Shown piece after piece: positions 3,316-29,525 of a stretch of DNA of 50,000 bases (position 1 is the stretch's first letter; every line of letters starts with the position of its first letter). This DNA is from Neocallimastix lanati (nom. inval.) (lineage: Eukaryota > Neocallimastigomycota > Neocallimastigomycetes > Neocallimastigales > Neocallimastigaceae), in assembly GCA_016946835.1 (NCBI GenBank), contig JACVTC010000019.1, positions 1,115,001 to 1,165,000 of the forward strand. Direction: 5' to 3'. The notes under the pieces were generated by a model. It ran no database searches, had not been told where the DNA came from, and saw only the letters and a list, made by a program, of their open reading frames with translations. The translations under genes were made by a program, and so were the position numbers.

Positions 3316-4251
3316 ATGTCAAAGGGAGACAACAAAGCCGAATACTTCGTTAAGTTAGAAAAGCTTCTTAAGGAATACAACACTATCTTCATTGTCAATG
3401 TTGATAATGTTGGTTCAAACCAAATGCACCAAGTCCGTAAGGAACTCCGTGGTAAGGCTGTTATTCTTATGGGTAAGAACACTATGGTCAGAAAAGCTAT
3501 TAGAAATGTTATTAGTGAACACCCAGATTTCGAAAAGCTTCTTCCAATTGTAAAGGGTAACATTGGTTTCGTTTTCACTAACGAAGATCTTAAGGAAATC
3601 CGTGATGCTATTAAGTCTAACCGTGTCCAAGCCCCAGCCAGAGCTGGTGCCATCGCCCCAGTCGATGTCTTCGTTCCACCAGGTAACACCGGTATGGAAC
3701 CAGGTCAAACTTCTTTCTTCCAAGCTCTTGGTATCCCAACCAAGATTTCCCGTGGTACTATTGAAATTGTTAATGAAGTTCACCTTGTTAAGGTCGGTGA
3801 AAAGGTCGGTCCTTCTGAAGCTACTTTACTTAACAAGTTAAACATTTCTCCATTCACTTACGGTCTTACTGTTGAACACATTTATGATAATGGTAATGTT
3901 TTCACTCCAGAAGTTCTTGATATTACCGATGACGATTTAATTGAAAATCTTGTTAACGGTATTAAGAACATTGCTGCTCTTTCATTAGAAATTAACTACC
4001 CAACTGTTGCCTCTGTTCCACACAGTTTAGCTAACGGTTACAAGAACCTTATTGCTATCTCTTTAGTCTCTGACTACTGTCTTGACAGTGTTAAGGAACT
4101 TAAGGAACTTCTTGACAACCCAGAAGCTTTAGCCGCTATGCAAGCTGCTTCTGCTGCTCCAGCTGCTGCTGAAGAATCTGCTGCTGCTGCTGCCGAAGAA
4201 GAAGAAGAAGAAGAATCCGACAGTGATATGGGTTTCGGTCTTTTCGACTAA
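3316..4251 (+). CDS. RPP0: 60S acidic ribosomal protein P0 (uL10)
   Basis: The stalk base protein of the large ribosomal subunit, which binds 28S rRNA and anchors P1/P2 dimers that recruit elongation factors. It is a single uninterrupted 311-residue frame, the usual length for P0. The N-terminal uL10 domain has [19 protein letters not shown] and [12 protein letters not shown], the middle insertion has [20 protein letters not shown], and an Ala/Glu hinge leads to the universal stalk tail ending DMGFGLFD. Codon use is strongly biased (GGT, AAG, AAC, CCA, GTC), as expected of a highly expressed gene and clearly unlike the surrounding DNA. The ATG is preceded by AAAG and no upstream in-frame start competes. 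No introns, unlike RPL23 in this window. An AATAAA hexamer lies about 30 bases after the stop. Confidence 0.98.
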
Positions 4252-5279
4252 GTTTGATGTAAATATTAAGCTAATATTTATTCAAATAAAGAAATGTTAA
4301 AAAATCGATATAAAACAAAATTATAAGAAGTAATATTTTTGGAAGTGTTTTAACATTATTTGTTTAAAAGTGTTTTTATTTAAATAGGAAAGTTGTTTAG
4401 TATTGATTAAATATTTTATTTTTAGGTGTAGTAATTTTAAAATGAAGTATAGATAATTATTAAATTATTTATGGTATAAAAACTGTTGAAACTGTAATTT
4501 TCTATAAATATGTTGATTTAATATTATAAAGTTGAGTATATATTCTAGTTGAAAATATGTAAATGAGAAATATTGTATGAATGTTTAATTTTTAAAAGCA
4601 GTAATTTTAAAATTAAGTATAAATTATAAATTTATTTGTGAAAAGTTAATTAATGAAACTCATAGAGTTATTGTATATGGTTATGAAAACACATGTGGTT
4701 AATTGACGATAAAACCTGTATTGTTTATATAAACGTAGGCTATATTGATTTTTATTGAACATATATGCATTGTTGTTAACTGAATAACTTAGCTATGTTG
4801 TTTATTTATTTATACACGTTCCAGAAATTCAATGAACAATAAAACAGCAATGAATTAATATAAATGATAGTGTTTTTAGCATTTGCAATCCTAGCTAGTT
4901 TGAGGATATATGAACATATATTTAAACATATTGAACAATCAGAAGCATATGTTGTTCAACTAGCTAGGTTTTGCATAACTAACCTATATATTGTTCATAT
5001 ATATAAAATATAAGGATTATTTCTAATATATTAAATATAAACAATTATTGCTAATATTTTATATAAACTATTGTTTTTATATTATAAATATAAACAATAT
5101 TGCTATATTATTATATAAATTATTATTATTAATATTATTATTATATGAATTTTGTTACAATATGCTGATTTTGAATGCCTTTTTGATACAAACTAGCTAT
5201 ATTTATCAATAAACAATGCAAAACATATATCGTTAATCATGTACAATCATAGCATAGGAAAATTAAATTAAAAAGATGG
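4252..5279. other. Intergenic: RPP0 3' region, then AT-rich DNA with one inverted repeat
   Basis: No gene seen. It starts with the RPP0 3'UTR (AATAAA near 4284). From about 4680 composition becomes more mixed, with many short words such as GAACATATAT, CTAGCTAG and ATTGTTCATAT recurring in both orientations. This suggests a decayed, unclassified repeat. Confidence 0.5.
4890..4968. repeat. 11-bp inverted repeat with 57-bp spacer
   Basis: CCTAGCTAGTT at 4890-4900 is the exact reverse complement of AACTAGCTAGG at 4958-4968. Inside it, GAACAA and TTGTTC form a second matching pair near the right arm. It could be a MITE end pair or a hairpin. No target duplication was identified. Confidence 0.6.
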
Positions 5280-7113
5280 ATTTCTATTTCTAATGTCTTC
5301 ATTCCCAAGGAAGGGGATCACTCATAACTATATAATTGATGCATAGGGCTAGTAAAAGGGTTAATGATTTTCGTAACAAAAATGCTAGGAGTGCTTGATT
5401 AATATTAAAGAATCTTATGTACCATAATTCTACTTCGTCAAGCGTTTAAAGAAACAAGCAAGGTAACTTTTTATTTTCTCATTCGGATCAATTGAATCGA
5501 TCTGCTGAACATTATAGTGAACTAGCTTCTGATGTACTCAACATAGTCTGGATAATGAATACTAGGTAAATTTATTTGGAATTAATCCTAACAATAATCC
5601 TACTTGGGATATTAATGATCCGTCTTTCTTTATTGGTAGTAACAAATTACCTAAAACTGACAACTATACTTATCTTGGTATTCCTTTTGATGAATCTTTA
5701 TTATTGAAACCTATACAATACTGTTTAATTTGGAATTTAAATGTCAAATTAAATTCGTATTTTCGATTTCTTATTAATAAATCTATTCCTCCTATATTGA
5801 AGAAATATGTTTTAATTTCGTTTATTCTTAGTCCTGTTTTATATTATGCTCCTCTCTTTGGTTCAAATAAGAGCAGATGCTTTAAAACTCAAAAAATTAT
5901 TAATAGAGGACTTTATTGGAGTTATGGATTTAAATCTCGTAATTCTTATGTTAGTCTCTATGATATTACTCGTGAATTGAGAATACCTCCTCTTTCAGCT
6001 ATCTGTGCAATATCTCAATTACGATGCTTTAGAAAATGGAAAAATTCATCATGTATTATTAATCATCTCACTAATAATATTCCTACTATGTCACATTACT
6101 CATTAACTAAAGAATCAAGGACTTTGGATAAGAAATTAAATGGTAAAAAAACAAGTGAAATAAAAAAGTTTTATTGGGAAAGAGATGTTCTTCAAACCCT
6201 CAAAAGCTTAAAAAGCAATTATTTACAAGGAGAATGATTTTGGATTTATTTCAGAAATCAAAAACTTAACATTTTAATATCCTAAGTATCAGTTGGGATT
6301 CTTTTGGAATTCTCGAATTAGGTATGGTTTTAAATTTGACATTAGTATTTCCATTAAAAGAAAAATAGTCTCAGAAGATTGCCCTAAATGTTGCCCTTGT
6401 TGTGGTGTTGTGGTCTTAGTGTACCAAGATTTTCTCACTGGATCTTTGCCTGTAATGAATTGGAAAATTACAGAAATAAATCTTTACCTTTTCTAGATGA
6501 TCTCTTTCTGAAGTTTGCAATGATAATTGAACAAAAATCCTTGGATGTTTCCTTAGATTCAGAAAAGAATTATGATAATATTTATTACTTTATATTGAGT
6601 GCTCTTCTTGGCGGGGCGGGCGTTCAATATATGAAAAAATTAAACTTAATGATGGGGAACGAAGACAATTAGTTGACAATATTTTTAAACAAAGTTCAAC
6701 TTCGTCGACCGTTTCGTATTTTGTGGGGATTGCGGAGTTTCTAATAAACGTAATACCATTAATTTGTCGATCTTTTAGTTTGATGATGAAATGTTATTCC
6801 ATTGAATCTACCGTTACCAAGAGCGTCGACGTCGAAATGATAAGGCATGGATTTTCATCTCCAGATACAGATTCGATTGATAACACTAATACTGAAATTA
6901 TTACTTGCAATAATGGACGTGGTGTTACTATCGAGGAATGGGAAAAGTTAGAGGCTATTGCTTCTAACGCACTTTTATAATTTTATAATATATAATATTT
7001 TAATTCATGTATTTTATTTTATTTTTTTTTCATTAAAATCATGTAATTTTATTATTATTATAAATTAAATAAAGTTTTCTCTAAGTCTAAAAAAAAAAAA
7101 AAAAAAAAAAAAA
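5280..7113 (+). mobile_element. Decayed LINE (non-LTR retrotransposon), 3' half with poly(A) tail
   Basis: This stretch holds the distal part of a LINE ORF2, its 3'UTR and a 25-nt poly(A) tail (7089-7113), all on the plus strand. Recognisable in order are a degraded IPKEGD-like reverse transcriptase segment (about 5281-5320), SLDNEY..LFGIN (about 5536-5590), the YLGIPFDESL motif after the RT palm (about 5660-5700), a post-RT region to 6237, then the C-terminal Cys region with CPKCCPCCG and, frameshifted, HWIFACNELENY. The coding sequence is broken by stops and at least two frameshifts. Related fragments occur at 7114-8468 and 45845-46592, so this is a local family. The 5' part (endonuclease, most of RT) is missing, typical of 5'-truncated insertions. 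Confidence 0.8.
5536..6980 (+). pseudogene. LINE ORF2 remnant: end of reverse transcriptase through C-terminal Cys domain
   Basis: The reading frame is clearest from 5560 to 6235, running from FGINPNN through NYTYLGIPFDESLL, the hydrophobic post-RT part and ending LQGE. The next segment (about 6268-6672) carries the CPKCCPCCG cluster followed by a SHWIFACNEL stretch like the zinc-binding ends of other LINE proteins, but split over two frames. A last segment (6723-6980) is in a third frame and ends at a TAA before the 3'UTR. It lacks the catalytic RT motifs and endonuclease, so it cannot be an active protein. Confidence 0.75.
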
Positions 7114-8468
7114 TTACTATTCCGATGGTATAAACTTAATCTAATCAATGCTAAAAATACAATAAGACAAGCTAGCAGGGCCAATACCTTCAAAGAAAAA
7201 GAACATAATTTCTTTCAGGTTATCAATTCAAACCCTTATCTAGAATATGAATTCCTTTAAAACAGAAATCAGGAAAATCAATAAAGGCTAAGGCTTATAA
7301 GAAAAATAAATTTAAAAAAACTAGAGACCACTAAAATCTCAATCTTAAATATCCTGAATTTAGCATTGCCTTCCGAATGGATACTTCATACCAGATGTGG
7401 ATATAAATTCGGTGCTCATGTTGCCAAAGCTGACAAAATGATTGAAGACAACTGTTCAGAAAAGGTGTCCTTATTGTTATAGAAAAAATAGTAACATTCG
7501 ATTAGAAAACTGGTTTTCTAAATGCTATCTTTTCTGTGAATTTCGAATAAAATATTTTAAGGTTATTGAAGTTCCTTATGAAAAATTTTTTAAAACTTCT
7601 AAATATTGTCCATTGTCCAATATTAAATAGTAATTTAAACACTGTTATCACAGATATGAATAATATAGGATCAAATGCAGATTCTGATAGTAGTAACGAA
7701 GTATATAATATTAATAATAATAATAACAGAAATAATATTGTTAATAATAGTAGAATTAGTGATTAGGGAAAATTGGAATATTAATATTAGTGATAGTGAA
7801 AATAATAGTATCGTTACTAATGATATAGTGAATAGGTCAATTTGTGAAAATCGTGTTAATATTAGTAATTTTCTGAATAATGAGTATGTAAATATATGTG
7901 ATATGGTACTGATTAAATAACTTCCTTCTTGATGGAAGAGATGCAGACATTATTTATTTAATTATAAAAGGAATGGGATGTTTTGTTTAAGAACCAAATC
8001 ATTTCTGGTGATTATTCCAAAACGTCATTCTTGATGAGATCTGCGGCTCTCTTTACAGAAATTATGCATAGGACTAGTACTCGACAAAGGTTACTATTCC
8101 GAAGGTATAAGTGCAAACTAACCAGGAGCGTCAACGCAGAAAATGCAGTAAGACAAGCTAGCAGGGCCAATGCCTCTGAAGGTGAAGACCATAATTTCTT
8201 TCAAATAATCAATTCAAACCCTAATACCATAATTTCTTTCAGACAATCAATTCAAACCCTAATCCGTAATAAATATTATGGAGGTTTGAGGTTAGTTGCC
8301 TATGAACTTTTTTTTCTGAATTTATTTATACACTTTATTTTGAATATTACTTTTTATTTCACATTACTATTTAAATATTATTATATTCAAATTGGACAAA
8401 TAATATATTTTTTTTTTATTAATTGTGGGTGGGTGTGTATTTTTTTTTAAAAAAAAAAAAAAAAAAAA
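7114..8468 (+). mobile_element. Second, rearranged LINE fragment of the same family abutting the first tail
   Basis: It begins directly after the poly(A) tail of the preceding copy and ends in an A-run at 8449-8468. Two segments inside it resemble each other: about 7114-7260 and 8091-8280 share TTACTATTCCGA, AAGACAAGCTAGCAGGGCCAA and ATAATTTCTTTCA words, so this is a composite or internally duplicated copy. The part at 7341-7420 matches the LKYP..F.I.FR LINE end seen at 6268 and 46290. The part at 7917-8060 matches the GGRDAD and SGDYSKT sequence at 45945-46060 and 46600-46660. An open frame (about 7983-8330) reads SGDYSKTSFLMRSAALFTEI then NAENAVRQASRANASEGEDH. No complete ORF remains. Confidence 0.65.
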
Positions 8469-23052: not shown

Positions 23053-24081
23053 ACAACTTCTAGTAAATTTACATATATAGAGAATAAGAATAATTTATGA
23101 GCAATTAATATCATAATCAATAAATAAATAAATAAAAGATATTATAATTCTATTTAATTTATTTAATACAATATTCTGCACAATTCAAAAGTTTCAATAT
23201 TAAATATAAATAAGTAATAGATTACAAATTTCAAATAAAATAATATAATCTTTAAAAATATTTATAATTATTTTAAGTAATTAAAATTTTTAAGAAAGAA
23301 AAAAAAAAAAAAATTAGATAATTAAAAATAAAATTGATAAAACTTATTTTTTTATTTTTTTTTTTTTAAATGTTTCATTAACATATAATTATTATTATTA
23401 TTTTATATGAAATATATAAAAAAAAAAAAAAAAAAATTATTTTAATTTTTATAATTCAATTTATTTTAATTAAACTAATTTATTTATTATATAGAATATT
23501 TTATAGTAAAACTCATTAATTATTCATTTAAATTCACATATTAAAAAATTTTATATTCACCTCATTAATTTTACAATTATCGATTTTCATCAACGAATTT
23601 ACCATTTCAGCCATTATATATGTACTTTTTTTATTTTAGAAGTATAATATTTAAAATGATTAAAATTATATATAATAGCATAACAATAATTTGATATTGT
23701 TGTTTGTATTTTATATGTAATGTTTAATTTATATAATTATATATTTTTGTGTTATGGTAGACTAACATTATAATAACCAAGATAATGACAACATAAAAAA
23801 TTTTCAAAAAAATGAAATAAAAAATAATAATAATAATAATAATAATAATTTTTATTAAATTACAATAAAATTTAATATTTTTTGTTTATTGTGTTTAAAC
23901 AACGTAATATAATATATATTAAATTTTGTTTTAATTTAAGAAATTATAAATAAAAAGAGACATTTAATTAAAAATATATTATTTAATCAAACTAGCCATA
24001 AAATTAAATTATTATATAATAAATTGTTTAAACTTTTTTTTTTATTTTTATTATTATTGTAATTATAATTATTAATTGATC

Positions 24082-24122
<41 letters not shown>

Positions 24123-24546
24123 GATTATAAAATAATAATAGAAAGAGAAAATAAAGTTAAAAATATAAATAATATAATAATTTTTTTTTTTGAATTTTTG
24201 ATAAATAAAATTAATAGCAATGAAAGTTTAAAATATAATCATAAAATAAAACAATAATATTAGTAATATTTTTTAAAATTTTAAAATAGTTAAAAAGTTA
24301 TATAGTTATAATAGCAATTGATAATCTTAATAATCAAATGAAATAAAATATAATAAAAAAAATGAAATAATAATATATAATATGATAATAATTATAATAA
24401 AATATAAAAAAAAAAAAAAATTTAAATAAAAACAAAATTAAAGAATAAAAAATAAGAAATACAATAAAGAGATATAATAAATAAATAAATAAATATAAAA
24501 ATAATAAATAAATAAATAAATAAAATTTAAATAAATAAATAAATAA

Positions 24547-24577
<31 letters not shown>

Positions 24578-24620
24578 CATAAACATTTTATTTTGCTGTT
24601 TTGTAAAAAGGAAATTTTTT
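21918..24620. other. 2.7-kb AT desert with A-rich tracts, no gene seen
   Basis: Low-complexity A-with-C sequence at about 22230-22440, A tracts at about 23020-23049 and 24551-24577, and a T26/A17 back-to-back pair near 24083-24122. Apparent poly-Phe frames on the minus strand are low-complexity artefacts. Confidence 0.55.
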
Positions 24621-24629
24621 TAAAAAAGA

Positions 24630-24638
24630 AAGGAATAT
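24630..24638 (+). promoter_or_regulatory. Shine-Dalgarno-like site before copy 1
   Basis: AAGGA at 24630-24634 followed by a 4-base spacer to ATG at 24639. Fungal mRNAs do not use such sites, so this is read as a relic of bacterial origin. Confidence 0.55.
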
Positions 24639-25580
24639 ATGCAAATAAGTATTTTAAACAATTATAAACCCATAAGCATCAACAACAATATAAAACACAA
24701 CAATATACCAAAACTGCAATCTTTAAAGGCAGATACCGTTTCATTCACAGGAGAAGAAAAAGTAAATAAAAAAAATCAAATAAATGCCATCAAAAGTGAA
24801 ATCTCAAAATTAAACACTAAAAGTAAAACGTACACGCAAGACATTTTAAATGTAGTGGGAATAAAATATAAAACAAATGAAAAAGGGAAATTAATTCTTG
24901 AAAAGTATGACCAACCTTTTGGATATACTTTTTCGGATATTGGCGTAGATGAAAATAGACTTTTCAAGGATATAGTTGAAATTGAAAAAACAGCTAATTT
25001 TTCAAACACCAATGCTACAAATTTGGGAAATTTGGAATTCATAAGCGGAATAGGACTGGCGGATGGCTCCTATATAGCAGTTAATTTTAACGGTTCTAAT
25101 ATAACTGACACCGGCAATTTAATATATATCGGAGGTGAACCTATTTTTGATAATTCAAAATTAACAAACCTTGAAAAAATAAAATACATAGATGGGGATG
25201 TTAGTTTTGAAAATTCAAAAATAACAAACCTCGGCGATTTAGTACAAATTGAAGGCAATGCTAACTTTAACAATTCTAAAATAAGAAATTTAGTTAATCT
25301 TGAACGCATAATTGGGAATGCAACTGTTGCAAATTCTAAAATAGAAAGTCTTGGTATTTTAAAAAGCATAGAAGGAGATGCTGATTTTAGATATACAAGC
25401 AAATTAAAAAACTTAGGCAATCTTAAACATATCGGCGGGAATGCTGATTTTACCTTTTCTCAAATTGAAAACATTGTAAATTTGGAACATATAGAGAAAA
25501 ATGCATACATAAATAAGGTTAACATTCCGAAAAACTTCTATAATATAAATTATATTGGCGGAGAATTGTATTATATTTAA
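24639..25580 (+). CDS. Bacterial-type 20-residue-repeat protein, copy 1 (313 aa, intact)
   Basis: First of four tandem paralogues. Residues 1-40 are basic and Asn-rich and end in ADTVSFTGEE. Residues about 48-115 form a conserved module (KTYTQDILNVVGIKYK, GKLILEKYDQPF, FSDIGVDENRLFKDIVEI) found in all four copies. From about residue 115 there are some nine 20-residue repeats of the type NLGNLKHIGGNADFTFSQIE, which suggests a beta-solenoid or LRR-like fold. No signal peptide, TM or catalytic motif. AAGGA lies 4 bases before the ATG, a bacterial-style ribosome site. Base composition is richer in G and C than the flanks. From memory, the N-terminal VSFTG pattern recalls gut Gastranaerophilales (Melainabacteria) proteins; I could not check this. 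Function unknown; an acquired gene is the favoured reading. Confidence 0.8.
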   Translation: MQISILNNYKPISINNNIKHNNIPKLQSLKADTVSFTGEEKVNKKNQINAIKSEISKLNTKSKTYTQDILNVVGIKYKTNEKGKLILEKYDQPFGYTFSDIGVDENRLFKDIVEIEKTANFSNTNATNLGNLEFISGIGLADGSYIAVNFNGSNITDTGNLIYIGGEPIFDNSKLTNLEKIKYIDGDVSFENSKITNLGDLVQIEGNANFNNSKIRNLVNLERIIGNATVANSKIESLGILKSIEGDADFRYTSKLKNLGNLKHIGGNADFTFSQIENIVNLEHIEKNAYINKVNIPKNFYNINYIGGELYYI

Positions 25581-25690
25581 AATACAACATCAAATAATCT
25601 AAAAATACTATATAAGCGTAATTTATAGCACAATATATATGCAACTTATATAGCAAATAATCCTATTACTCATATAAGAAAGGGTAGAAA

Positions 25691-26219
25691 TTGAAAGTAA
25701 ATCCTATAAATAGCTTTTCAAATCTTTACTTAAATATTCCAAAGCGCACAAGAAGCAAAATTAATTTGCACTCAATCGGATGCGATACGATTATGTTTGA
25801 AAGCAGCAATAGTGAAGCAAAAAAAATAAAGGAACAAATCTCCAAATTAAATACAAAAGATAAAATATACACTAAAAAAAGTTTTAGATATTTTAAAAAT
25901 ACCATACAAAATAAATCAAGAAGGCAAATACATTATAGCTGAATATGTCCAGCCGGAAGAATACAAATTTTCAGATATTAAAGTTAACGAAAACAGAATA
26001 TTTAAAGATATCGTAGCAATATCAGGAAACGCAGATTTTAGGAATACAAAAATTTCAAATCTGGGAAGCTTGGCATATATCGGGGGAAATGTTGAATTTA
26101 CAGACACCGATATTAAAAACGTATCATCATTAAGATATATAGGAGGAATTGCTTATATTAACAGCTTTAATCCAAAGAAATTTAAAAATTTGAAATATAT
26201 TGGTGGCGGAATACGATAG
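25691..26219 (+). pseudogene. Bacterial-type repeat protein, copy 2, TTG start, one frameshift
   Basis: Begins at TTG (25691) six bases after a GAAAGGG site, with KVNPINSFSNLYLN then SIGCDTIMFESS, matching the N-terminal pattern of copies 1, 3 and 4. No ATG can replace it without losing this conserved start. The module continues to DKIYT, then the frame is lost at a run of seven A (about 25876-25882), where six would keep it open. The remainder is in the next frame: EYVQPEEYKFSDIKVNENRI, then about four repeats ending in YIGGGIR before TAG at 26217-26219. It is shorter than copy 1, having fewer repeats. A eukaryote would not normally start at TTG, so expression in the host is unlikely. A sequencing error in the A-run is the alternative to a true frameshift. 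Confidence 0.75.
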
Positions 26220-26357
26220 TATTTAACCAAATAAAATGTATTCAAACAATCTAAGCTTAATATTGTTATATAAAGTTATATAAGTTTAATTTCAAGTTTT
26301 GTGCATGTTTTTTATTTATTCTATAAAATTATATTAGAAGTTGTTAGGAAAAGAACA

Positions 26358-27030
26358 ATGAAGGTCAATTTTTTAAACATTCATACTGTAGGAATATATC
26401 CTATTAAATCTCGCATTGCATGCAAGTCTGTATTGCACCATAGAGCGGCAGATGTTGTTTCTTTTTCATCAAAAAAAATAAGTATTGCCGAATTTAATAA
26501 AAGACTTAATAATATGGGAGTAAATACAAAAACCTGCACGACAGAACAAGTCTTTGATTGTTTTGGGACAAAATATGAAAAAGATGATAACGGAAAATTA
26601 ATTTTATATAAATATGCACAGCCAGCAACAAGCATGACATATTCAGATTATGGAATAAAAGAAGATGACCTATTAAACGATATAGTGGAAATTAAAGGTG
26701 ATGCTTTCTTTGTAAATTCAGATGCCGAAAGCTTAGGGGCTTTAAAATATATCGAAGGAAATGCTTATTTTCAAAAATCAAAGTTGAAAGACTTTGAAGG
26801 AACTTGAATTCATAGGAAAAGATGCTTATTTTCAAGATACCGAAATAGAGAGCCTGAATAAAATAAAAAATATTGGAGGAAACTTATATCTTCAAGGTTC
26901 AAAAGTTGAAAATCTTGGTGATTTAGAATATGTCGGCGGGGATATTTGGTTTAATTCAAATACCATAAATCTGGGCAATCTAAAATATATTGGCGGTACG
27001 GTGCATATTGAACCAACAAAAAAGAACTGA
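26358..27030 (+). pseudogene. Bacterial-type repeat protein, copy 3, one frameshift
   Basis: Start chosen at ATG 26358, eight bases after AGGA and matching MKVNFLNIH to the starts of copies 2 and 4; the in-frame ATG at 26301 would add a non-conserved extension. The N-terminus carries RAADVVSFSSKK, then the module (KTCTTEQVFDCFGTKYE, GKLILYKYAQP, YSDYGIKEDDLLNDIVEI) and repeats. The frame breaks near 26800 (KLKDFEGT then stop), and the next frame resumes at KELEFIGKDAYF, one base out, continuing through three more repeats to TGA at 27028-27030. Removing one base would join them, so this is a single indel. Only ten bases separate its end from copy 4. Confidence 0.75.
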
Positions 27031-27040
27031 AAGGACAGAT

Positions 27041-27766
27041 ATGAGAGTAAATATTATAAATAGCTCAAGTAATACAAATTTTAATAAATATTTAACAAAA
27101 TGTAATCGACCAAAACCACATTCAATAAAACTTGACAACATTTCATTCAAAGCAAAAAATGATAGCACTAATGATAAAATCCAATTTAAACTTAATCATT
27201 TTGTTCCGGAATTAAGGTCGTATCAAGCTTATCGTATATATAATGCATACGGTATAAATTTGCAATTAACTAAAGACGGAAAGATTATTCTGGATGAGTT
27301 CAGACAACCTGATGAAAATACAAGTTTTGCGGATCTTGGAATAAATGAAACACATCTGCTTGAAGATGTTATTGAAATAAAAGGAGATGCTGATTTTAGA
27401 TATTCTAAAGCAACAAAACTTTGTAATATTAAAAAAATCGGCGGTTCTGCAAATTTTGAAGATTCAAGAATTTCAAATTTAGGTGAATTGGAATATATCG
27501 GAAATAATGCAAATTTTGAACATTCAAAAGTAGTCAATATGGGAAAATTAAATTATATCGGAGGGGATGGCAAATTTAGTTATTCTAAAATTGAAGATTT
27601 GGGCGAGCTTACAGAAATAGGGAAAAATGCTGATTTTTCATATTCATCCGAAAAAAATCTCGGCAATTTAAAAATAATAAACAAAAATGCTGATTTTAGG
27701 AACTCACCGGTAAGAACTCTTTCAAAAGTAGAATATATTGGCGGAAACTTGCATTGCGAGAAATAA
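27041..27766 (+). CDS. Bacterial-type 20-residue-repeat protein, copy 4 (241 aa, intact)
   Basis: Start chosen at ATG 27041, five bases after AAGGA (27031-27035) and giving MRVNIINSSSNTNFN, the family N-terminus. The upstream in-frame ATG at 26990 lies inside copy 3 and is unlikely. SIKLDNISFKAKN replaces the VSFTG stretch. The conserved module follows (SYQAYRIYNAYGINLQL, GKIILDEFRQPDE, FADLGINETHLLEDVIEI), then about seven repeats such as NLGELEYIGNNANFEHSKV, ending YIGGNLHCEK. Spacing of ten bases from copy 3 is operon-like. No signal peptide or TM. Together with copy 1 it is one of the two uninterrupted members. Confidence 0.8.
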   Translation: MRVNIINSSSNTNFNKYLTKCNRPKPHSIKLDNISFKAKNDSTNDKIQFKLNHFVPELRSYQAYRIYNAYGINLQLTKDGKIILDEFRQPDENTSFADLGINETHLLEDVIEIKGDADFRYSKATKLCNIKKIGGSANFEDSRISNLGELEYIGNNANFEHSKVVNMGKLNYIGGDGKFSYSKIEDLGELTEIGKNADFSYSSEKNLGNLKIINKNADFRNSPVRTLSKVEYIGGNLHCEK

Positions 27767-27815
27767 TAAATAAATAATAAATAAATATTCAGATATAGAA
27801 TGGAATTATGAACTC

Positions 27816-29525
27816 ATGAGAAACAAATTAATAGAGCTCTCTGTTAAGAATGTTCTTGGCAATATAGGATCTGAGGATACACCAAATCGCTTACTTAATA
27901 ATGGTAAACATATAGTATACTCTCCTATCAATGTCTATAACGGTTGTGGTTTGTCCTCCGGCAATAAACAATATAAGAGTAATAGTTGTTGTTCGGCGGA
28001 AGACCACTGTATCGAATATTCCTCCTCCAATCCATCAGACCTTTGCTACGCCAGAAATGATTGTCAAACCAAATTTGGTATCTGTATTCTAAAGGACCAT
28101 ATCATTACAAATAATACCGATCCTACTACTACTCTTGATAAACCATCTACAACGACTGTTGTCATTCCATCGACGACTCAAAAGAATTGTCATACACCTC
28201 TTATCTTTTACGACAATAATAAAACGAATGTATATTACGAAGAACAGTATTTTGAATATATTGATCATATAGAGGATTCTTCTCCTCTCACACATCCTAA
28301 ATATGATTGTGTATTAGCCGATGCTGATATATATGATGACGGATTACAAATTGATGGAATAGCTTACTGTGGAAAAGTGTATTACAAAGATGATGCGATA
28401 AGATTCCGAATTGAAACTAATCCAGAGAAAACAATTCATTTTACCAACAATACGGTTGTTTTAGAAAAAGTCTATCATGCTCATTTTGATAGTTATAATG
28501 GTGACAAGTTTGCGGTGAATCCAGAAGTGCTAGACAATCAAATTCATGTTCAATATCGTTCCTACAAAAATGAACTGATATTACTCGAAAAAGATAATAT
28601 TAAAAGTAATTTTAATAGACCGATCGATTCTAACGAAGAAAATAATTTCGCTAATTTATTAAGACTTTACAATAATAATGTAAATATAAGACTTTATAAT
28701 CTTAATAAATATCGTAATGGGTCTATTAGTTCCATTGAGGAATTTAAAAATCAGGTTACATACAAACACTCTCTTACGCCTATTTATTCTATTGAGGAAC
28801 TTGAGTCCTTCTGCATAAATAGCGAACATTTGTTCAAATTAAATTTATTCTTTAAAAGTTCTGTCGATACTACTCCATCTACTACCACCACCACCACCAG
28901 AAAAGCGGAAGTAACAACCACAACTACAAAAAGAAAAACAGTAACTACTACAACTACAACCACAACTAAAACTACAACCACAGAAAGAAAAACAGTAACT
29001 ACTACAACTAAGAAAGCCGCAGAGACTTCCTCCGATAATCATCTTTACACCGTTAAATTGAAGGGTACTCTGGAATTCAGCAAATATTATTTAGGTGTTG
29101 ATCAGTTAACACCTCAAACTTATTTCTTTATTTATCAAGAGGAAAAAGATGGTGTTAGTGCTCCATATCGAACTTGGCATATTACCTCCAAGAATGAACC
29201 TTCCTATTTATACTTATCAGAAGCTAAATATGGTAATAACGGTGAGCCCTCTGAATTATGTCTTGATGTCAACTCCTCCTCCTATTATTATAACACCCTT
29301 AGTATTGTAAAATGTACAGAGGCAAAACACAAATTTTTATATGGAGGAACATATTCGAATGTCATTGATATTTACAACCAAAATAATGAGCATTATTTAG
29401 ATTTACTTGGAAATCCATTATGTATTTATTATTCTGATATTCCCTATGCGGCAAAATGTAGTAACATTGAGAAAACGTCTGACGAATTAGCTCAACATAT
29501 GAAATGGACTATTCACTATCTTTAA
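27816..29525 (+). CDS. CBM18 (hevein-type chitin-binding) protein with Thr-rich linkers, 569 aa; 5' end uncertain
   Basis: Residues about 38-92 carry a hevein-like Cys pattern (GCGLSSGN, SCCSAEDHC, and DCQTKFGIC as the typical ending), so chitin binding is likely. Two Thr-rich linkers (about 98-118 and 352-402) bracket a 230-residue middle domain I do not recognise. Residues about 405-569 (YLGVDQLTPQ, LCLDVNSSSYYYN, HYLDLLGNPLCI, MKWTI) resemble a ricin-type beta-trefoil, at moderate confidence. Such proteins are normally secreted, yet this frame has no signal peptide. The open frame continues upstream of the ATG through DIEWNYEL to an AG near 27792, so an earlier exon may be missing or displaced by the bacterial-type block that ends 50 bp away. 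Composition is fungal-like. Confidence 0.78.
   Translation: MRNKLIELSVKNVLGNIGSEDTPNRLLNNGKHIVYSPINVYNGCGLSSGNKQYKSNSCCSAEDHCIEYSSSNPSDLCYARNDCQTKFGICILKDHIITNNTDPTTTLDKPSTTTVVIPSTTQKNCHTPLIFYDNNKTNVYYEEQYFEYIDHIEDSSPLTHPKYDCVLADADIYDDGLQIDGIAYCGKVYYKDDAIRFRIETNPEKTIHFTNNTVVLEKVYHAHFDSYNGDKFAVNPEVLDNQIHVQYRSYKNELILLEKDNIKSNFNRPIDSNEENNFANLLRLYNNNVNIRLYNLNKYRNGSISSIEEFKNQVTYKHSLTPIYSIEELESFCINSEHLFKLNLFFKSSVDTTPSTTTTTTRKAEVTTTTTKRKTVTTTTTTTTKTTTTERKTVTTTTKKAAETSSDNHLYTVKLKGTLEFSKYYLGVDQLTPQTYFFIYQEEKDGVSAPYRTWHITSKNEPSYLYLSEAKYGNNGEPSELCLDVNSSSYYYNTLSIVKCTEAKHKFLYGGTYSNVIDIYNQNNEHYLDLLGNPLCIYYSDIPYAAKCSNIEKTSDELAQHMKWTIHYL

Follow-up and report, generated by a model that had tools for sequence, protein, structure and literature searches.

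We analyzed a stretch of 50,000 nucleotides from the fungus Neocallimastix lanati (assembly GCA_016946835.1, contig JACVTC010000019.1, positions 1,115,001 to 1,165,000), which is referred to below as the window. At window positions 24639-27766, four paralogues encoding 20-residue repeats were found to lie head to tail on the + strand (Table 1). No introns were seen in this array of four copies, and between the copy 3 stop codon (27028-27030) and the copy 4 ATG (27041) there are 10 bases. In these respects the locus is as described in the initial annotation, which had reported four consecutive paralogues on the same strand, free of introns and with a 10-base spacing between the last two. It had also counted them as four genes. 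All four copies are present, but copies 2 and 3 are each broken by one frameshift, and these two frameshifts were the only defects found in the array.

Table 1. Position of the array, its junctions and the flanking fungal sequences in the window
Feature	Position	Strand	Remarks
Left fungal flank	24478-24578		TAAA microsatellite ending in an A run
Left junction (probable)	~24579-24595		
Segment in front of copy 1	24614-24638	+	25 bases with a Shine-Dalgarno-like site; likewise upstream of copies 2, 3 and 4
Copy 1	24639-25580	+	Intact, 313 aa; N-terminal tail is disordered; also helices and a solenoid with repeats of 20 residues
Copy 2	25691-26219	+	TTG start; frame changes once near 25880 and is otherwise without a stop; from three-frame translation and piecewise matches
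Copy 3	26358-27030	+	Frame changes once near 26790-26800 and is otherwise without a stop; from three-frame translation and piecewise matches
Copy 4	27041-27766	+	Intact, 241 aa; JGI variant differs at 1/241 residues
Right junction	27767-27785		TAAA-type sequence, G+C 0.000
3' part of fungal subtilase (S8)-type gene	27786-29525	+	Open reading frame 27816-29525, 569 aa; catalytic part absent

The strongest self-match was found at lag 20 for copy 1, for copy 4 and for two of the four pieces into which copies 2 and 3 are split, and copy 1 as query recovered the other copies at E values from 1.4e-20 to 2.4e-6. The repeat family is therefore more than a chance resemblance. It occupies a single place in the genome (199 Mb, 762 contigs). 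Whole-genome searches with copy 1 (seven segments, all 9 candidates scored) and with copy 4 (six segments, all 23 candidates scored) returned the array site only, and a DNA search of the fungal genome with positions 24600-26200 gave no second site. No Rfam match was found in the window.

The structure model of copy 1 had a mean pLDDT of 86.4 and a pTM of 0.79, with residues 1-36 below a pLDDT of 50. The modeled solenoid has a fold shared with Recep_L_domain and LRR proteins. Despite the likeness of fold to such solenoids, neither copy 1 nor copy 4 reached the Pfam or NCBIfam cut-offs, and for the second piece of copy 3 the score was 13 bits compared to the curated Pfam cut-off of 21.8. In bacteria the family most likely serves as a binding scaffold with an LRR-like fold.

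Relatives of the four copies in Gastranaerophilales

Among 5.8 billion proteins, 24 of the matches listed for copy 1 had an E value of 0.001 or less, and besides near-identical copies of copy 1 none of the proteins listed exceeded 48% identity. A GTDB-wide scan of low sensitivity, in which a four-sequence alignment led to 242 pattern stretches, identified three stretches that encode relatives (loci L010, L011, and L012). L011 is titled Candidatus Gastranaerophilales, while L010 and L012 are from uncultured bins with genomes that are included in our draw of Gastranaerophilales genomes. The RUG prefix of L012 presumably stands for rumen, and Gastranaerophilales live in guts. In the draw of 383 Gastranaerophilales genomes, copy 1 was matched (E ≤ 0.001) in at least 139, the best match being at 3.6e-43. 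This number is a lower bound, as only the best candidates of each genome were scored. A draw across the whole phylum gave matches in 60 of 386 genomes, and every one of these was already part of the Gastranaerophilales draw; phyla beyond that of the donor were covered by the low-sensitivity GTDB scan alone. The donor was most likely a member of the order Gastranaerophilales. At the level of order, the guess of a Gastranaerophilales-like donor made in the initial annotation thus held in the draw of 383 genomes, in the three loci of the GTDB scan and in the phylum-wide draw. A phage or plasmid as carrier was considered and rejected, since 50,697 phage and 72,556 plasmid records gave no tblastn match at E 1e-5. 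No relative was found in viral contigs either, for which six and one pattern stretches were tested.

Paralogues in a row were also found on the bacterial side. In bin L010 three of them lie at 4241-8139, with an open reading frame (ORF) in reverse orientation between the first two, and the row is surrounded by ordinary bacterial genes. The genome to which L010 belongs (G001) has 13 matching segments distributed on several contigs, and the three solenoid proteins of L010 are diverged.

In a local comparison, copy 1 was closest to the bacterial locus L036, and copy 4 to one of the bacterial paralogues in the L010 row. The metagenome protein P0005 was the best match for two pieces, namely the second of copy 2 and the first of copy 3, and the metagenome protein P0009 was that for the second piece of copy 3, in each case with bacterial loci close behind. 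Among the seven best matches of these five sequences there was no other fungal copy. Two matches were obtained for the first piece of copy 2, which is short: P0007 at 31.2 bits and fungal copy 1 at 30.4 bits. The copies are thus closer to outside proteins than to one another, from which it follows that the array diverged before the transfer. For the same reason amplification within the fungus was rejected. Transfer as a block would fit both this pattern and the row of three paralogues in L010, and judged from these comparisons the array most likely diverged in bacteria and arrived as a block. The multi-gene part of the recent multi-gene transfer from a gut bacterium, as proposed in the initial annotation, is thereby sustained, while its recency is addressed by the indirect evidence below. 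In a tree that used part of the loci and did not include copy 2, P0004, P0014, P0017, P0019, P0021, P0023, P0024, P0025, P0026, or P0027, the three fungal copies used fell into one unresolved bush together with other rows; P0017 and P0026 had no anchor motif.

Bacterial signals, junctions and the truncated neighbor

Shine-Dalgarno-like sites were found upstream of all four copies, compared to 7 of 126 ATGs in the non-genic fungal DNA of the window, and ribosome-binding-like sites were present in 171 of 332 bacterial ORFs. With G001 as training set, the synonymous codon log-ratio per codon was 0.115, 0.154, 0.072, and 0.085 for copies 1-4; the bacterial median was 0.087, and seven fungal ORFs ranged from -0.077 to 0.075. 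When G119 and G044 were used for training, the copies scored 0.057-0.148, and every one of the seven fungal ORFs was lower (-0.224 to 0.015). Adjacent genes that keep bacterial signals, as looked for in a recent en-bloc insertion, were therefore observed for ribosome-binding-like sites and for codon use. No nonsense codon was found in the 944 codons of the copies, which in a simple neutral model corresponds to at most ~2% neutral substitutions per site (95%). Because of this lack of nonsense codons the arrival would be recent, unless selection has kept the frames open. The insertion may accordingly be called recent or constrained, and nonsense codons, ribosome-binding-like sites and codon use lend indirect support to its recency.

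The G+C content was less informative. Values were 0.27-0.32 for the copies, 0.096 for the left desert and 0.24-0.41 for five non-overlapping outside ORFs of at least 150 aa. The G+C content above that of the flanks, as reported in the initial annotation, is therefore real with respect to the left desert, but the copies are within the range of the outside ORFs. High G+C was rejected as a sign of origin, as the fungal ORFs of the window cover the same range. The two longer spacers had a G+C of 0.227 and 0.181, and the segment before copy 1 had 0.169. Spacer G+C is mildly above that of fungal non-genic DNA and says little on the origin of the array.

A fungal TAAA microsatellite abuts the array at both ends. 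There are 43 starts of the sequence TAAATAAATAA in the window, nine of them at 24478-24540 and one exactly at 27767, and none is inside the array. When positions 23400-24640 were compared to the fungal genome, there were at least 343 matches, and none of those listed besides the own place extended past 24595, a limit that coincides with the end of low complexity. The right junction is located at most ~20 bases from the end of copy 4 (27766) and within a subtilase-type gene. The initial annotation had placed a CBM18 gene here; what follows the array is instead the 3' part of the subtilase-type gene. Pfam gives the neighbor no chitin-binding match, and the CBM18 label rests on PF00187 as precomputed for the relatives P0033 and P0034.

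In P0029, P0030, P0032, P0033, and P0034 the peptidase part PF00082 is found in front of a shared C-terminal part, while P0031 has the same C-terminal part behind a different front domain. P0030 is from Piromyces sp. E2, an anaerobic gut fungus. The alignments of the subtilase relatives start in the window at 27774-27798, with one at 27738, and a paralogue on contig C743 has one open frame straight through the truncation point. The possibility that the peptidase part had been displaced within the window was rejected, because no other match with E below 1 was found there. An allelic neighbor without the array was not found in the genome; there were 68 matches, all of which, except for the own place, were pieces of <190 bases.

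Variants of two of these genes are known from JGI. P0025 is a variant of copy 4 with a single residue changed, and P0028 is a variant of the neighbor with 1 of 569 residues changed and 13 gap columns. The latter starts at the methionine of the truncated ORF. The truncated protease and its JGI variant have threonine-rich linkers of different length (these 13 gap columns in all). Stretches that resemble this linker recur at many places in the fungal genome.

Origin of the array and alternative explanations

The explanation we favor, with a probability of roughly 0.78, is that a Gastranaerophilales chromosomal fragment carrying the four-gene array was recently captured by the fungus, in which it would now be a non-functional and decaying passenger. 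About 3.2 kb of Gastranaerophilales chromosomal DNA, with a ready-made tandem array, its spacers and its ribosome-binding sites, would have entered the fungal chromosome. The likeliest route would be joining at the microsatellite when a double-strand break within or next to the subtilase-type gene was repaired, with loss of the catalytic part. Residence would have been too short for the gain of introns or of fungal codon use, and the array would most likely be without function and starting to decay, copies 2 and 3 having one frameshift each.

A number of observations weigh against this explanation. A ribosome-binding-like site was also found in one of five fungal ORFs. The fungal codon training consisted of seven ORFs, of which one (0.075) scored above copy 3, and with G119 and G044 three of the four copies were under the bacterial 25% point of 0.127. 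The G+C values of the two spacers and of the segment before copy 1 were equaled by 90 of 1275, 189 of 1272, and 295 of 1280 fungal non-genic stretches. In the tree, which had 32 rows, 21 of 29 inner branches were open. The species of the donor and the date of transfer are not fixed, because the nearest bacterial proteins are ~40-45% identical to the fungal copies, and no near-identical donor sequence was found. The JGI variants P0025 and P0028, for which the contigs have 2,827 and 5,145 bases, are known at the level of the protein. No bacterial 16S rRNA was found in the assembly, with a positive control in 9 of 14 genomes, which favors the explanation, but just 5 of 164 candidates were scored in this search. 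Finally, both junctions are those of the assembled sequence.

Junctions of this kind would also fit an assembly chimera, in which DNA of a bacterium in a mixed culture was misjoined to the fungal contig and both frameshifts are assembly errors. Such a chimera would account for genes that look bacterial in ribosome-binding-like sites and codon use, for the location of both junctions in an A+T-rich microsatellite, which is prone to assembler slips, and for the two frameshifts being the sole defects. We nevertheless consider it unlikely. The flanks look fungal and are part of a 1.75 Mb contig, the array family was present at no other place in the assembly, and bacterial 16S rRNA was lacking among the candidates scored. 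The only strong UvrA match in the assembly was 36-44% identical to the Gastranaerophilales UvrA and is read as not belonging to a close contaminant. Moreover, the JGI proteins P0025 and P0028 are near-identical to copy 4 and to the neighbor in the window, respectively, and P0028 keeps the same methionine, which makes a one-off misassembly less likely. Alleles of one fungal genome would be expected to show this pattern, with distances that are similarly small to the left and to the right of the junction. The UvrA-like gene (C1:3503922-3506411) belongs to one of the large contigs in the assembly, has an open frame of 841 residues and is perhaps another, older bacterial acquisition.

Somewhat more doubtful than a chimera is domestication in progress, in which copies 1 and 4 would be kept open by their use in the fungus, copies 2 and 3 being dispensable. 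The frames of copies 1 and 4 extend without interruption over 313 and 241 codons, and the protein cluster of copy 1 is on 61 public contigs, which might include transcript assemblies. However, divergence is so low that the frames would be expected to be open even if there was no selection, and ribosome-binding-like sites and codon use look unaltered. The longest of the 61 contigs is 6,658 bases, and the representative of copy 4 was found on one contig. The record for copy 1 could be explained by fungal runs, perhaps transcriptomes, or by a bacterium. An equally long shot would be an array caught between loss and use, with two copies breaking and two open and possibly transcribed, offering the fungus a bacterial recognition scaffold. 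Least probable by far is an old transfer that was kept by many anaerobic fungi and amplified within the fungus. Bacterial gene transfer is common in the host phylum, with 277 events reported for mammalian lineages (PMC10978972). Against an old transfer, the 5.8 billion proteins searched include those of Piromyces sp. E2 and gave no more than 48% identity besides the near-identical copies, and the copies match outside proteins better than one another.

Known parallels and further features of the family

In the literature covered, the nearest parallel to a raw multi-gene fragment is TvLF, a piece of bacterial DNA of 34 kb in the genome of Trichomonas vaginalis (PMC4082486). As described there, several neighboring bacterial genes were taken up in one event by a microbial eukaryote, recently and with some of the genes already being pseudogenes (PMC4082486), and in this the array would be alike. 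Unlike TvLF, it consists of ~3.2 kb with four paralogues of one family, it has a Gastranaerophilales donor and a fungal host, and no near-identical donor is known.

In Neocallimastix californiae 165 genes of bacterial origin were tested (PMC10831095), and for Neocallimastigomycota in general xenologs with bacterial donors are reported (PMC6712302, PMC11291939, PMC10978972) that have few or no introns (PMC11291939). The array agrees with these in host phylum, in having a bacterial donor and in the few or absent introns. As far as these reports go, the xenologs described are mostly metabolic genes or carbohydrate-binding domains, and many are common to lineages (PMC6712302, PMC11291939, PMC10978972). 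One of them, an aldehyde/alcohol dehydrogenase, has a donor from Cyanobacteria (PMC10978972). Neither a Gastranaerophilales donor nor a tandem array of this kind is reported for fungi in the literature covered, the scope of which did not extend to the survey of Murphy et al. (2019). Bacterial genes of anaerobic fungi tend to be observed at a late stage, by which time they are adapted and spread, so that the arrival step stays hidden. If our explanation is correct, the array is a raw fragment that shows this step and in which bacterial signals, junctions and the first defects can still be read; chromosomal DNA with more than one gene would have been joined to an A+T microsatellite next to a broken gene. 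Gastranaerophilales would then be a further donor, and decay versus domestication would have a dated starting point.

A [VI]SF motif was found in the N-terminal tail of copies 1, 3, and 4, while copy 2 is without it. The motif is also present in P0010, P0011, P0012, P0013, P0018, and two of the three L010 paralogues, and variants of it were found in P0007, P0008, P0015, P0016, and P0017. It was not shown to be an order-wide tag on other proteins, with 9 of 302 for residues 11-60, compared to 2 for residues 61-110 and 1 for residues 101-150. Longer relatives of the family have the same solenoid behind differing front parts. P0008, P0010, P0013, P0016, and P0018 have in common a front part with a WCTK-like motif before the solenoid, and the front of P0002 is an Abi-like domain. 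When six proteins were analyzed with PADLOC, AbiD was assigned to P0002, and the only other result was a weak match on P0015.

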